From a virus, in the IMG/VR virus record IMGVR_UViG_3300050010_000252, positions 1-21,030 of that record: a stretch of 21,030 nucleotides of DNA. One strand, written 5' to 3'. Each line of letters starts with the position of its first letter. The stretch's first letter is position 1. Made by a program: the position numbers and the translations under genes. Of the stretch, positions 3,886-9,518 are shown one piece after another. The notes below the pieces were generated by a model. It had not been told where the DNA came from. It did no database searches and saw only the letters and a program-made list of their open reading frames with translations.

Positions 3886-4175
3886 AACGTCCATTTGCAG
3901 ATTTTACTAAGTTTGTTAAGAAAGAGCTTGATACTAGAACGTTTCATGTCCATTGCATCAATATGCAAGACGACGGGCAAATATACAGGAAAAACGACGA
4001 GTGGTATATTGAGATTTCAAGAGGTATATCAGAGCAAGCCAAGATCGACGCCCTAGTACATGAGTTAGGGCATTTATTATCATTATCAATGCATCACGGC
4101 AAGATGTGGGGGCAAGGATATGTAAGGGCGTTTAGATTATATTTGAAGTGGCTACGAAAAAAAAAAGATGGATAA
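3882..4175 (+). CDS. Small zincin metallopeptidase-like protein (SprT-like?)
   Basis: The 97-residue frame begins at GTG 3882, overlapping the previous TGA stop. It carries the zinc metallopeptidase motif HELGH at residues 60-64 (E61 catalytic, H60 and H64 zinc ligands), followed by HHGKMW at 71-76, which can supply a third histidine and resembles the HG..W of SprT-like zincins. No signal peptide is present, so it should be cytoplasmic. Length is close to the minimum for a catalytic domain. The gene ends in a run of ten A (4157-4166) and overlaps the terminase start. The substrate is unknown; head maturation or host-protein cleavage are guesses. It sits where a small terminase gene is often found but does not look like one. 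Confidence 0.7.
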   Translation: MKRPFADFTKFVKKELDTRTFHVHCINMQDDGQIYRKNDEWYIEISRGISEQAKIDALVHELGHLLSLSMHHGKMWGQGYVRAFRLYLKWLRKKKDG

Positions 4176-7062
4176 GAGGACACTGCAAAAGATTGATTTA
4201 TTGTTATCGACAGGAAACGAACAAGATTTATTCCTAGCCCAACAACTTGCTAATTCCCCCTACCTGCAATTCGAGCCCCGAGAAGACGATCCCGATAATG
4301 GGGATGAAATGTCTTCATTCTTCTACGACGATTGGAATGGGGCTAAGTGTATTATCGCCGGGAATGCCTGTCATGCCAAAGGCACTTTGGTTCTAATGTA
4401 CGATGGCACTATAAAAAAGGTAGAGGACATCTCTCTCGGCGACACCGTAATGGGCAATGACGGCACTCCCAGAACAGTATTACAATTACATAGTGGTATA
4501 GATAAATTATTCAAGATAACGCCCAAGGGTAACAAAGGTAATAAGGTATCTCCGTATAACGATGAAGTAATTGTTAATGGCAATCATACATTACATTTAA
4601 AAAGAACCAGCGATATTGTGGATCATAAGAGTCGATGTAAGAATGCTAGATTTAACAACCACTTCTCTCATAACGGCGACGGGAGTTTTGATATCTCTGT
4701 AAATGACTTTATCAACCAATCTGATAAATTCAAGAATAGTATGGTGCAAACTTATTGTGAGGGGGTAGAGTTTTGCAAAAAAGACTTAAAGATTGATCCT
4801 TACTTTCTTGGTGTCTGGCTAGGAGATGGATCGAAGCACAGAATAGCTATTACAACGGTTGATGAAGAAATTATTGATTATTGCAAGTCGATAGCTATTC
4901 AATATGATCTAAATTTTAATAAAGATGAGATTACCTATCACTTAACGAAGGGTAATGTTGGACATAAGGGAGAGAATGTCAATCATCTGCTGCGGGAGTT
5001 TAAAAAATGTAATTTAATCAATAATAAGCACATACCATTTGATTATTTAACTAGCTCTAAGGAAGATAGATATAAGTTGCTAGCAGGACTGATTGACACA
5101 GATGGGACATTGGATAGTAAATCATTTAATTTTACAAACAAGAATAAACAATTATCACTGGACGTTGTCTACCTCTGCCGTAGTCTTGGGCTGAAAGCCA
5201 CGATCCAACCTATTAATAAATACTGTTTTTATAAAGGCATTAAGAAAGAAGGTTTGTATTACAGTATTTACATAAGTGGCGAAATACATAAGGTACCAAC
5301 TAAAACCAAGAGAAAACAGGCTCCGATCCATAAGCCCCATAATAGGTTCAGATTTAATATAGAAGAATTTGGTGAGGGAGAGTATTATGGATTTACCCTC
5401 GACGGTAACCATTTATTCTGTTTGGGTAATTTCTGGGAGCAATCAAATTCAGGGAAGACTTACTGCTCCGCTATGTTGTTGTGTAGGGAACTGGAAGCGA
5501 GAGAACCCCCACTCCCGAATACGCCTGTCTGGATTATCAGCCAGACATTAGAAATGTGCGGCTCCATCTACTCACAGGCTATCTCCCAATTTATACCAGC
5601 CGATAGGATCGAGAATATACGTTGGCGGAAGATGGGTTTATATCCTGAGACTGTTATTCTTAAGAAGAACAAAAAAGGCAATAACTATATTATACAATTC
5701 TTCTCATACGAAATGGGGAGGCAAGCATTACAAAGCTCAAACGTCTATATGGCATGGTTGGACGAGCAAGCCCCACAAGCCGTCATTGAGGAGGTTATGA
5801 CGAGGCTCCGAACTTGGTGGCATCCTAACTGTTTTATTTACTCCCTTACTCCATTATCCCCTGATCCGCACTTGCAAGAATTGTACGAGCGTCGAGAAGA
5901 TGACGATGTTAAGAATCTATGGAGATTCTATAGACTTAATACGATGAAGAATGAATTCGTAGATAAGACATGGAAATCAGCTTTCTTGGAAAGTTTAAGT
6001 CCGGAGCAACGACAGACTAGGCAGTTCGGACAGTTCTCTAATTATTCAGGTGCTATATATAAAGAGTTCGGAGATCACCATGTAATAAATCCATTTGATA
6101 TAACTGGAGCCAGCAAATGGCTGCTCGGCGTAGACTTTGGGTTTCGATTCAATGCTGCCAGTTGGATCGCAGAATTAAATGGCAAGTATTATGTATTTGA
6201 CGAATTGTTAATGCAAGAAACTATGACAGAGGATTTCTGCGAAGCGATATTAAAGAAGGGATTCGACTATCGTTACAGGGCATATTGCGACTGGGCTGAT
6301 CCAATGGCTATTAGGAGGATGGATATAGGCGGTATATATGCTCAGAATGCCCTTAAAAATGTATATGACGGTATAGAAACATTGAGAAGTTTATTCTATC
6401 AAGATAGGCTATTCATATTCAAAACATGTAAAAGAACAATAATGCAAATGAGAAATTATTGTTGGGAAGAAATTAAGGAAGGTAAAGAAGTCAAGCAACA
6501 GCCGAAAAAGGTTAATGATCACTTGTGCCTCCCCGCAGGAGAATTGATTGACACTCCAAATGGTAGGGTTCCGATAGAATACGTTAAATCAGGTGATTAT
6601 GTGTATTCTCATTTAGGTATAGCTAAGGTGGAAGCGGCAGCAGTAACAGGAATTAAACAGGTATTCAAAGTTGTATTCGATGATGGACGATATATATTAT
6701 GCACCGGCGAGCATCCATTACGAGTTTGTGATGGCGGTTGGGTAGAGGCTGAGAACTCGAAAGATTGTATGATAGAAGAACTAAACGGAAACGGTATTCG
6801 AGTCAGAGATATTGTACCTCTTGAAGAAGAAGTTGTATATGCCCTTAAAACTTCTGATGGGACATTCTTTTGCAATGGTATATTACTGAAAAATTGTGAT
6901 TCACTGAGGTATTGTGTATATTCATCAATTAAGCAGGAACTCAAAGGATGGAGTCAACCCGATAGCGGTAGTATTAAATTAACAGGAGCAACAGAGATGC
7001 CTAAACATCTACGTGCGGCTTTACCCAAAGTAGTTCCGGGAATGAGAGGAATATATAAATAA
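4168..7062 (+). CDS. terL: Terminase large subunit interrupted by two inteins
   Basis: A 964-residue precursor that would give a 481-residue terminase after removal of two inteins (residues 68-427 and 787-909), the normal size for the family. TerL is the packaging motor: an ATPase pumps DNA into the prohead through the portal and a nuclease cuts the genome. Joining the exteins gives IIAGNA-SGKTYCSA (Walker A). Walker B is MAWLDEQAP with D532 and E533; SLTPLSPD looks like the coupling motif. The RNase H-like nuclease has D656 (LLGVDFGF), D708 and D711 (YCDWADP), and the third acid in NDHL-CDSLRY (D911). It overlaps the zincin gene by 8 bases and precedes the portal gene. No small terminase was recognised in the window. 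Confidence 0.95.
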   Translation: MDKRTLQKIDLLLSTGNEQDLFLAQQLANSPYLQFEPREDDPDNGDEMSSFFYDDWNGAKCIIAGNACHAKGTLVLMYDGTIKKVEDISLGDTVMGNDGTPRTVLQLHSGIDKLFKITPKGNKGNKVSPYNDEVIVNGNHTLHLKRTSDIVDHKSRCKNARFNNHFSHNGDGSFDISVNDFINQSDKFKNSMVQTYCEGVEFCKKDLKIDPYFLGVWLGDGSKHRIAITTVDEEIIDYCKSIAIQYDLNFNKDEITYHLTKGNVGHKGENVNHLLREFKKCNLINNKHIPFDYLTSSKEDRYKLLAGLIDTDGTLDSKSFNFTNKNKQLSLDVVYLCRSLGLKATIQPINKYCFYKGIKKEGLYYSIYISGEIHKVPTKTKRKQAPIHKPHNRFRFNIEEFGEGEYYGFTLDGNHLFCLGNFWEQSNSGKTYCSAMLLCRELEAREPPLPNTPVWIISQTLEMCGSIYSQAISQFIPADRIENIRWRKMGLYPETVILKKNKKGNNYIIQFFSYEMGRQALQSSNVYMAWLDEQAPQAVIEEVMTRLRTWWHPNCFIYSLTPLSPDPHLQELYERREDDDVKNLWRFYRLNTMKNEFVDKTWKSAFLESLSPEQRQTRQFGQFSNYSGAIYKEFGDHHVINPFDITGASKWLLGVDFGFRFNAASWIAELNGKYYVFDELLMQETMTEDFCEAILKKGFDYRYRAYCDWADPMAIRRMDIGGIYAQNALKNVYDGIETLRSLFYQDRLFIFKTCKRTIMQMRNYCWEEIKEGKEVKQQPKKVNDHLCLPAGELIDTPNGRVPIEYVKSGDYVYSHLGIAKVEAAAVTGIKQVFKVVFDDGRYILCTGEHPLRVCDGGWVEAENSKDCMIEELNGNGIRVRDIVPLEEEVVYALKTSDGTFFCNGILLKNCDSLRYCVYSSIKQELKGWSQPDSGSIKLTGATEMPKHLRAALPKVVPGMRGIYK
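4369..5448 (+). mobile_element. Intein 1 in TerL P-loop, LAGLIDADG type
   Basis: This encodes a 360-residue intein (TerL residues 68-427). It starts at C68 with block A (CHAKGTLVLMYDG ... EDISLGDTVMG), has a block-B-like GNHTLHL (H140, H143), and ends with the block F/G segment FTLDGNHLFCLGNFWEQSN, followed by Ser as the +1 residue. The central part is a LAGLIDADG homing endonuclease: FLGVWLGDG at 213-221 and the classic LAGLIDTDG at 305-313, with acidic D220 and D312-region residues present. The insertion lies inside the Walker A motif (GNA/SGKT), a highly conserved site of the kind homing elements favour. The penultimate residue is S426 instead of the usual His. All key endonuclease residues appear intact. 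Confidence 0.93.
6526..6894 (+). mobile_element. Intein 2 in TerL nuclease motif, 123-residue mini-intein
   Basis: This encodes residues 787-909 of the precursor. Block A begins at C787 (CLPAGELIDTPNG ... VKSGDYVYS), block B is LCTGEHPLRV with the canonical T..H (T846, H849), and the end is FFCNGILLKN (N909) followed by Cys as the +1 residue. Removing it restores NDHL-CDSLRY, the conserved third nuclease motif of large terminases (usually DHxxDALRY). There is no room for an endonuclease, so it is a mini-intein near the lower size limit known for the family and cannot home on its own. The residue before the terminal Asn is K908 instead of His. Confidence 0.93.
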
Positions 7063-7124: not shown

Positions 7125-8729
7125 ATGAGAAAACCTAGCGAAAAAAAATCTGAGATTGCCAAGAACAAGCCGAGAACTCCCAACGGTAGGTTTGTTAAGA
7201 AGAATCAGATGTATGTAGGTAGCTCTGACAATAGCAGTCTGTTCAAAACCCACATAGAAGGGAACCCTTGGCTGTCTTCCCCCGCCGACGAGTTCCAACG
7301 ATCTGTTCCGCCTGGTATCACGCCGATGGCTCCTGGCGTTTACCACGCCAATATTTTTCGTATGATTTCTCAGAGTCCATCGCAAATTTACAGAAACCTT
7401 GATGAGGCGTTAAGAGCTTGTAAGCAGTCCGCAAAAGTTATGATGAATGATGGGGCTATTACTGCTCCTTTGTTTCAGCGTATTTTACATTTGGTTTCTT
7501 GCAACGACGGCTTAGTTCCCGAAGACGAAAATGACATCGAACAGGTGGAGATGTGCGAGAAACTGTGGGATATAGTGCAAAAAACTCCTGATTGGAACGA
7601 ATTTAAACGAACTCTTGCAATGGCCCTCTGGTACGGGAAATGTGCCAACGTATCAAACTTCCGTTGGGAATATGATAACGGCGAGCGGCAAATGGTAGTC
7701 CATGATTGGACTAATATCATCGGTGACAAACTTATATTTAGAACAAACGGACGTATGGGATTTATTTGCCATGTGCCAAGCGGGTTCAGGGATTGCGTGG
7801 TTACTGATATTGGGCGAGCAGAACTATTCAATACCGATGATTACGAATGTATTACTCATCATAAGTATTTCATAGTAGATGAGCCATACGACGAGGGCAT
7901 GTTAGCCATCGGAAATGAAGGTTATGGGTATCGCAATTATCTGTATTGGATTTGGTGGCTCAAACAAATGGTGCTGGAATGGGCGATGCTCGGGCTTCAG
8001 TTGTACGGGAATGGTGGGCTCCGCATCGGCTACTTCGAAGAATCAAATCCGGAATCCGCCGAAGCCGTCGCCAAAGCATTAGCCGAAGCTAATGGGCAGA
8101 ACATAATACTTTTCCCCCGCCCGATCGGTACTGGAACGGGCTCTGAACGTCAGGGTGCTGGACTGGAAATTATTAGTCCTAGTGGGTTGGGCTTGGAGTG
8201 GTTCCAAAACTTCCTTGATGGTTATTTTGGTGCTCAGATTAATCAATTAATACTTGGGACTGATTGGAGCACGCAGCGTAGGGACTTCCACTCTTATCTC
8301 AAATATGATGCCCGTAAATTAGAAGACACTATTACAAGAGACTTCGTGAGTGTGTTACAGAAATATAACTTCCCTGGATACCCGCACAAAATTAAATACC
8401 AGATTCAAGTCCCACATTATAATCCTGAGCAAATTATGACAGCGGCACAAAGGCTCTATGAAATGGGCGGAGAAGTTGGATTGAGCGAAGTGGCTTCGTT
8501 GGTTGGATTAACCTTGCCAGGGACTAAGAAAAAGAAGTTAGTAAAGATGGAGTTGGCGAACCAATCTATAAAGAGCCCAAGAATTAATTTACAAGGTTTT
8601 GAAGGAGCTATGTCAGGTGGAACAGGACAAGAAGAAACGATCCATCAGGAGGCAGCAGGAGAAGCGAATGAAGGAATACAGGAAACTCCTGCGGAAGGTA
8701 CGCAGGGCCCGCAAGCAACGACAATGTAA
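7125..8729 (+). CDS. Portal protein (Mu gp29/DUF935-like)
   Basis: A 534-residue protein directly after terL, the expected place and length for the portal, the dodecameric ring through which TerL pumps DNA. I base the family call on order, length and the C-terminal half: WAMLGLQLYGNGGLRIGYFEE, ALAEANGQNIILFP, LEWFQNFLDGYFGAQINQLILGTD (around residues 355-380) and KLEDTITRDFV, which follow the pattern of DUF935/Mu gp29-type portals. The N-terminus is basic and disordered-looking (KPSEKKSEIAKNKPRTPNG), and the C-terminus (about 490-534) is a low-complexity tail rich in E, G, Q and T. The start is preceded by AGAGATT. Confidence 0.8.
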   Translation: MRKPSEKKSEIAKNKPRTPNGRFVKKNQMYVGSSDNSSLFKTHIEGNPWLSSPADEFQRSVPPGITPMAPGVYHANIFRMISQSPSQIYRNLDEALRACKQSAKVMMNDGAITAPLFQRILHLVSCNDGLVPEDENDIEQVEMCEKLWDIVQKTPDWNEFKRTLAMALWYGKCANVSNFRWEYDNGERQMVVHDWTNIIGDKLIFRTNGRMGFICHVPSGFRDCVVTDIGRAELFNTDDYECITHHKYFIVDEPYDEGMLAIGNEGYGYRNYLYWIWWLKQMVLEWAMLGLQLYGNGGLRIGYFEESNPESAEAVAKALAEANGQNIILFPRPIGTGTGSERQGAGLEIISPSGLGLEWFQNFLDGYFGAQINQLILGTDWSTQRRDFHSYLKYDARKLEDTITRDFVSVLQKYNFPGYPHKIKYQIQVPHYNPEQIMTAAQRLYEMGGEVGLSEVASLVGLTLPGTKKKKLVKMELANQSIKSPRINLQGFEGAMSGGTGQEETIHQEAAGEANEGIQETPAEGTQGPQATTM

Positions 8730-8954: not shown

Positions 8955-9518
8955 ATGGCATGCGGTATTTATAGAATTTTATGTTTGGGTAATCAAGAGT
9001 TTTATTATGGCTCTGCTGTTAATTTTGCTAGGAGACAACAAGAACATCTCTATAGGTTAAGGAAACAAAATCATAAAAACCATCATTTACAAAACGCATA
9101 TAATAAATATGGCAAAGATTGTTTTGTATTCGAGTTCATCGAAGAGGTGGAACCTGAAAAATTATTTGAGCGAGAGCAATTTTACTTAGATAAGATGTTC
9201 GATAGGAGTGGTAATCGTCTTGGGTTCAATATCGCTATGAAAGCCGAAGGAACAATGTCAGGTAGGAAAATATCCGAAAAACAAAAAAGGCAAATAAGCG
9301 AAGCCCAAAAAGGAAACAAGAATTGTGTGGGTAGAGTTATATCTAATAAAACAAAATTGAATATAAGTTTATCAAAAGGCAGAGGGTATACTATTTCATT
9401 AAATAGAAAAAAGAAATATCGAGTTCATTGTTTAGGAATATGGGAGTCTTTCTATACTGAACAAGAAGCAATAAATAAGGTAAACAAAATCAGGAGTTAT
9501 TATGTTAATCCGGCATGA
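8955..9518 (+). CDS. Free-standing GIY-YIG homing endonuclease
   Basis: A 187-residue protein with GIY at residues 4-6, YYG (the YIG equivalent) at 17-19, R26-R27, H31 and the catalytic-Glu region LFEREQFYLDK (E74). Downstream, SGRKISEKQKRQISEAQKG (102-120) is a NUMOD3-type DNA-binding motif, with a second, weaker copy (GRVISNKTKLNISLSKGRG). The C-terminus (KYRVHCLGIWESFYTEQEA) may be a further DNA-contact motif. Such enzymes cut an intron- or gene-less allele and spread themselves by repair. It starts three bases after the previous stop with no good SD and its 3' end overlaps the next gene by 17 bases. All catalytic landmarks are present, so it is probably active. Confidence 0.9.
   Translation: MACGIYRILCLGNQEFYYGSAVNFARRQQEHLYRLRKQNHKNHHLQNAYNKYGKDCFVFEFIEEVEPEKLFEREQFYLDKMFDRSGNRLGFNIAMKAEGTMSGRKISEKQKRQISEAQKGNKNCVGRVISNKTKLNISLSKGRGYTISLNRKKKYRVHCLGIWESFYTEQEAINKVNKIRSYYVNPA

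Follow-up and report, generated by a model that had tools for sequence, protein, structure and literature searches.

A viral large terminase interrupted by inteins in its Walker A loop and its third nuclease motif

The terminase gene and its surroundings

The window analysed here, a stretch of 21,030 nucleotides from IMG/VR record IMGVR_UViG_3300050010_000252, carries on its plus strand an open reading frame (ORF; 4168-7062) that stays open for 964 codons, with no stops or frameshifts. Judged by its sequence, the product is a large terminase (TerL) of the Terminase_6N type, made as a 964-aa precursor in which three extein segments alternate with two inteins, all on the plus strand. The N-extein (residues 1-67; 4168..4368) carries the opening half of the Walker A loop at its end (IIAGNA) and is followed by intein 1 (residues 68-427, 360 aa; 4369..5448). 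The middle extein (5449..6525), delimited by the Terminase_6N match and by alignments, starts with the SGKT of the Walker A loop and ends with NDHL. It contains the Walker B motif (WLDEQ, 5755-5769), nuclease motif I (GVDFGF, 6127-6144) and a candidate nuclease motif II (YCDWAD, 6283-6300), whose Asp is assigned less surely. Intein 2 (residues 787-909, 123 aa; 6526..6894) separates it from the C-extein (6895..7062), which begins with CDSLRY, the second residue being the third catalytic Asp, and runs to the stop codon. Once both inteins are removed, the joined exteins measure 481 aa. A sequence-only reading of this DNA had placed the ORF, both boundaries and the lengths of 360, 123 and 481 aa exactly to the residue; its description of a TerL with one intein in the Walker A loop and another in nuclease motif III agrees with the profiles and alignments reported here.

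The spliced sequence behaves as a terminase in every comparison that follows. Its residues 61-273 match Terminase_6N (Pfam PF03237, 4.9e-16), and its AGNASGKT, WLDEQ, GVDFGF and NDHLCDSLRY motifs align to intein-free TerLs. The blastp match to one of these, ctEqG8, improves from 1.5e-20 for the precursor to 6.7e-28 for the spliced form. Aligning the joined exteins to intein-free TerLs had been proposed as a check on the two-intein reading: across 77 sequences both junctions are gapless, no sequence (0/77) has inserted residues at either, and the two segments are absent from the homologues. This rules out ordinary TerL domain extensions as an account of the insertions. With the insertion point marked by a slash, the P-loop reads GGNR/SGKT in the family and AGNA/SGKT in the window TerL, and the nuclease motif reads [ND]DHx/xD[AS]LRY in the family and NDHL/CDSLRY in the window TerL. 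The intein 2 junction lies one residue before a fully conserved Asp, which, by what is established for TerL nucleases, is the third metal-binding residue. At the P-loop junction, the last N-extein residue is an Ala (4366-4368), replacing an Arg that is near-invariant in intein-free TerLs (72 of 77).

Among TerL relatives of the extein, the closest reaches about 28% identity, so the arrival of each intein is not dated by any close intein-free sister. Used as a single query in a scan of viral contigs, the spliced TerL retrieved one distant relative and intein 2 none, and it took alignments to reach further relatives. A tblastn search of 50,697 annotated phage records with the portal protein (7125-8729; Portal_Mu, 4e-24) gave no match, and family matches were lacking for most of the other late genes tested, which marks this phage lineage as poorly sampled. 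A GIY-YIG/NUMOD3 endonuclease gene (8955..9518, plus strand), whose product resembles group I intron endonucleases, separates the portal gene from the gene that follows. An intron covering this gene was considered and rejected: Rfam gave no intron match, and the gene is therefore probably free-standing. In principle, it is conceivable that this endonuclease could act in trans.

Two class 1 inteins of different type

Intein 1 combines a PI-SceI-type Hint domain with a LAGLIDADG endonuclease. It matches Pfam Hom_end_hint (2.5e-26), Hom_end (1.7e-9) and LAGLIDADG_3 (1.2e-8), and aligns to PI-SceI (1.5e-20) across both LAGLIDADG motifs, FLGVWLGDG (4804..4830) and LLAGLIDTDG (5077..5106), each on the plus strand and each keeping its Asp. 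With both acidic residues in place, the predicted endonuclease may still support homing. The class 1 features present are the Hint domain, C1, block B (NGNH), N360 and a +1 Ser; the C-terminus is Ser-Asn, lacking the penultimate His that is common but not obligatory. The GC content of intein 1 is 36%, compared with 40-44% in the extein parts, and intein 2 is not AT-richer. A PI-SceI-like LAGLIDADG intein occupies the identical P-loop position (GGRG/SGKT) in the TerL of Vibrio phage pYD38-A and Aeromonas phage pIS4-A, and the pYD38 intein is 35.6% identical to intein 1 (tblastn). In contrast to intein 1, it ends in HN rather than SN, and these phages have no nuclease-site intein.

Intein 2 is a mini-intein without an endonuclease. 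Its match to the Pfam Intein_splicing profile is weak (5.5e-5, below the curated cutoff), and, searched on its own, intein 2 aligns with the gp41-1 intein (3.4e-5). An AlphaFold2 model built with 11 relatives has the full Hint fold at a mean pLDDT of 97.5, and its best solved match in Foldseek is again the gp41-1 intein (TM 0.89). The invariant residues C1, T60, H63 and N123 are kept; together with the Hint fold, the TxxH of block B (TGEH) and a +1 Cys, these are the features of a class 1 intein. The C-terminus is Lys-Asn, so here too the common but not obligatory penultimate His is absent, and the block F His is also missing. The insertion site is identical to those in the TerLs of cyanophage Mic1 (QDHL/CDALRY) and Tetrasphaera phage TJE1 (PDHI/CDAGEY), and the site in vir335 lies one residue off. 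The TJE1 intein differs from intein 2 in its length of 318 aa and in an HNH endonuclease encoded in the +2 frame, and its TerL differs from the window TerL in having no ATPase-domain intein. An HNH profile found no match anywhere in the window, and intein 2 has no HNH in its +2 frame.

An HNH endonuclease frame overlapping motif III inteins

Scanning viral contigs with relatives of intein 2 gave 26 loci, and then at least 80 with a second scan, whose pattern AN[GN][IV]L[VS][SH]N[CT] selects canonical intein C-termini. With near-duplicates removed, the matches listed include 67 inteins placed at TerL nuclease motif III by their C-extein pattern. Among these listed matches, 63 of the 67 non-redundant inteins are overlapped by an ORF that encodes an HNH endonuclease, always in the +2 frame. 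Examples, in addition to others, are the loci L015:4001-4891, L016:4001-5035, L018:4001-4903, L021:4001-4954 (the cultured phage TJE1), L022:4001-4900, L023:4001-4861, L024:2739-3680 and L036:4001-4975. Sampled HNH ORFs (n = 5) match Pfam HNH_3 at 3e-11 to 3e-20. Of the two frames, the HNH frame is the better conserved in every one of the 40 closest pairs (mean identity 0.69 versus 0.44 for the intein frame). When the HNH frame was shuffled among synonymous codons, a mean of 1.8 stops was expected in the intein frame, which is open in all observed cases. Among 60 HNH ORFs with an ATG, 24 have a Shine-Dalgarno-like motif before this internal start, where random positions within these inteins would give 6.9. 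We rejected chance open frames as an account of the HNH ORFs, on the grounds of the HNH_3 matches, the frame conservation and the exclusive +2 placement. A +2-frame HNH also accompanies two inteins around nuclease motif I, in L061 (PEFG/CDVARFGDD) and L114 (DFGFT/CDPASLT).

These inteins show that an intein can carry an endonuclease without fusing it in frame. Because the HNH lies in a separate frame, mini-inteins like intein 2 could arise by simple deletion. A comparison of L016 and vir335 gives a direct view of HNH loss: the two share the site and its flanks, and the L016 intein has 345 aa and an HNH, whereas the corresponding vir335 region has 142 aa and none. Identity between intein 2 and its relatives is only 22-36%, and at this distance the descent of intein 2 from an HNH-bearing ancestor is something we infer. 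We think it rather probable that intein 2 is an endonuclease-free remnant of a widespread and apparently undescribed group of TerL motif III inteins, in which one frame would encode a self-splicing intein and the +2 frame an internally initiated HNH homing endonuclease. A literature search, with most subscription papers and bioRxiv preprints outside its scope, found no intein with an overlapping-frame HNH. The nearest likeness is the ShiLan insertion in a phage methylase, which hides an HNH and which, by its authors' analysis, lacks the features of an intein or intron (PMC11855218). It resembles the TerL nuclease-site inteins in being an in-frame insertion with an HNH endonuclease in another reading frame; in contrast to it, the TerL insertions are recognizable inteins. 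Of all the results, the overlapping-frame HNH inteins most deserve following.

Terminases with two inteins: separate invasion or control of packaging

A TerL split by inteins in both its ATPase and its nuclease domain is already known from cyanophage Mic1, whose authors proposed in 2020 that the inteins provide fine, biosensor-like control of packaging (PMC7156551). A control hypothesis for the window TerL is therefore not new. Like the window, Microcystis phage Mic1 (MN013189) combines a large, endonuclease-bearing ATPase-domain intein with a mini-intein at the identical nuclease site. Its ATPase-domain intein differs in lying at a later site, TG/TPKGYG, rather than in the P-loop, and in having a +1 Thr instead of Ser. 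Among the matches listed, our survey found inteins of the ATPase domain and of the nuclease site together in six IMG/VR contigs, hence in seven TerLs with Mic1, a bare count that carries no chance expectation. L041 (IMGVR_UViG_3300043399_001031), found in this survey, has both inteins at the exact sites of the window (GGSR/SGKT and GDHI/CDALRY); its nuclease-site intein has an out-of-frame HNH, unlike intein 2. Beside a nuclease-site intein, L015 has an ATPase-domain intein at the P-loop, L018 has one at the P-loop (GPGK/T), L036 in the P-loop region and L043 between the P-loop and Walker B. L095 also has inteins at both places, its contig beginning inside the first. The window TerL is thus another clear case beside Mic1, and the survey shows that the layout recurs. 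A single TerL ORF interrupted by two inteins was also described in the crAss-like phage OBYQ01000140 (PMC7886860); the likeness is in intein number, and unlike the window its inteins are described as being of the Hint-Hop type and its ORF has a recoded stop codon. In a mycobacteriophage survey, TerL inteins were confined to the ATPase domain (PMC5050341).

The explanation we regard as highly probable overall is that the 964-residue precursor holds two class 1 inteins that invaded the gene separately, intein 2 being a shrunken member of the HNH-associated family. Because C1, block B, the terminal Asn and the +1 nucleophile are present in both, the inteins are expected to splice: they would excise post-translationally, leaving a packaging enzyme of 481 residues made from the three joined exteins. 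As long as intein 1 stayed in place, the ATP-binding loop would be split, and as long as intein 2 did, the nuclease would have its third catalytic Asp displaced. The intein positions thus favour the earlier prediction that the unspliced protein would have neither ATPase nor nuclease activity. Without a penultimate His in either intein, or a block F His in intein 2, splicing could be slow or partial. Gly, Lys or Ser often stands in for the penultimate His in phage inteins, and precursor accumulation was influenced by one residue of this kind (PMC5050341); given this variation, the Ser and Lys found here make slow or tuned splicing possible. Each intein would have been a mobile element that entered the TerL gene at a site ranking with its most conserved, intein 2 belonging to a large same-site family whose full members carry the overlapping HNH. 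Among the matches listed, most of the TerLs with the 67 nuclease-site inteins have no ATPase-domain intein; across phages the two sites are occupied independently of each other, and the pairings recur with inteins of different types. This independent occupancy, the endonuclease of intein 1 and the difference in intein type favour two separate homing events, which the sequence-only reading had offered as its alternative, over a purpose-built double lock, the potential two-key control of that reading.

The double lock supposes that both inteins are kept because conditional splicing, responding to timing, redox state or a DNA signal, withholds the ATPase and the nuclease until packaging. Both active centres are indeed split, Mic1 and the six contigs show the combination again, the Mic1 authors made a similar proposal, and both inteins lack the penultimate His, a position where replacement affected precursor accumulation in phage inteins (PMC5050341). 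However, inteins favour conserved active-site residues in any case, such sites being conserved across phages; a single unspliced intein would already suffice as a lock; and most TerLs have one intein or none at either site. Non-His ends are common even in single-intein TerLs at the nuclease site (25 of 67 among the matches listed), and no close relatives show conserved retention. We consider such control improbable. Even less credible, to the point of being very unlikely, is that one or both inteins have decayed and splice poorly or never, leaving TerL mostly inactive. The penultimate Ser and Lys, the missing block F His and the Ala at the P-loop junction would fit decay, but the nucleophiles and block B residues are all intact in both inteins, the ORF is uninterrupted, confidence in the intein 2 model is very high and the gene sits within a head-gene cluster of open reading frames. 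In addition, splicing without a penultimate His has been documented (Chen et al. 2000, as cited in PMC4031507 and PMC5050341). Since the double-intein layout recurs, the control hypothesis can be tested by comparing TerLs that have one intein with those that have two. Another double occupancy was seen at L033:2026-5736, where both inteins lie in the ATPase domain of TerL, one at the P-loop (GHGK/T) and one at a later site (T/RWHSDD).
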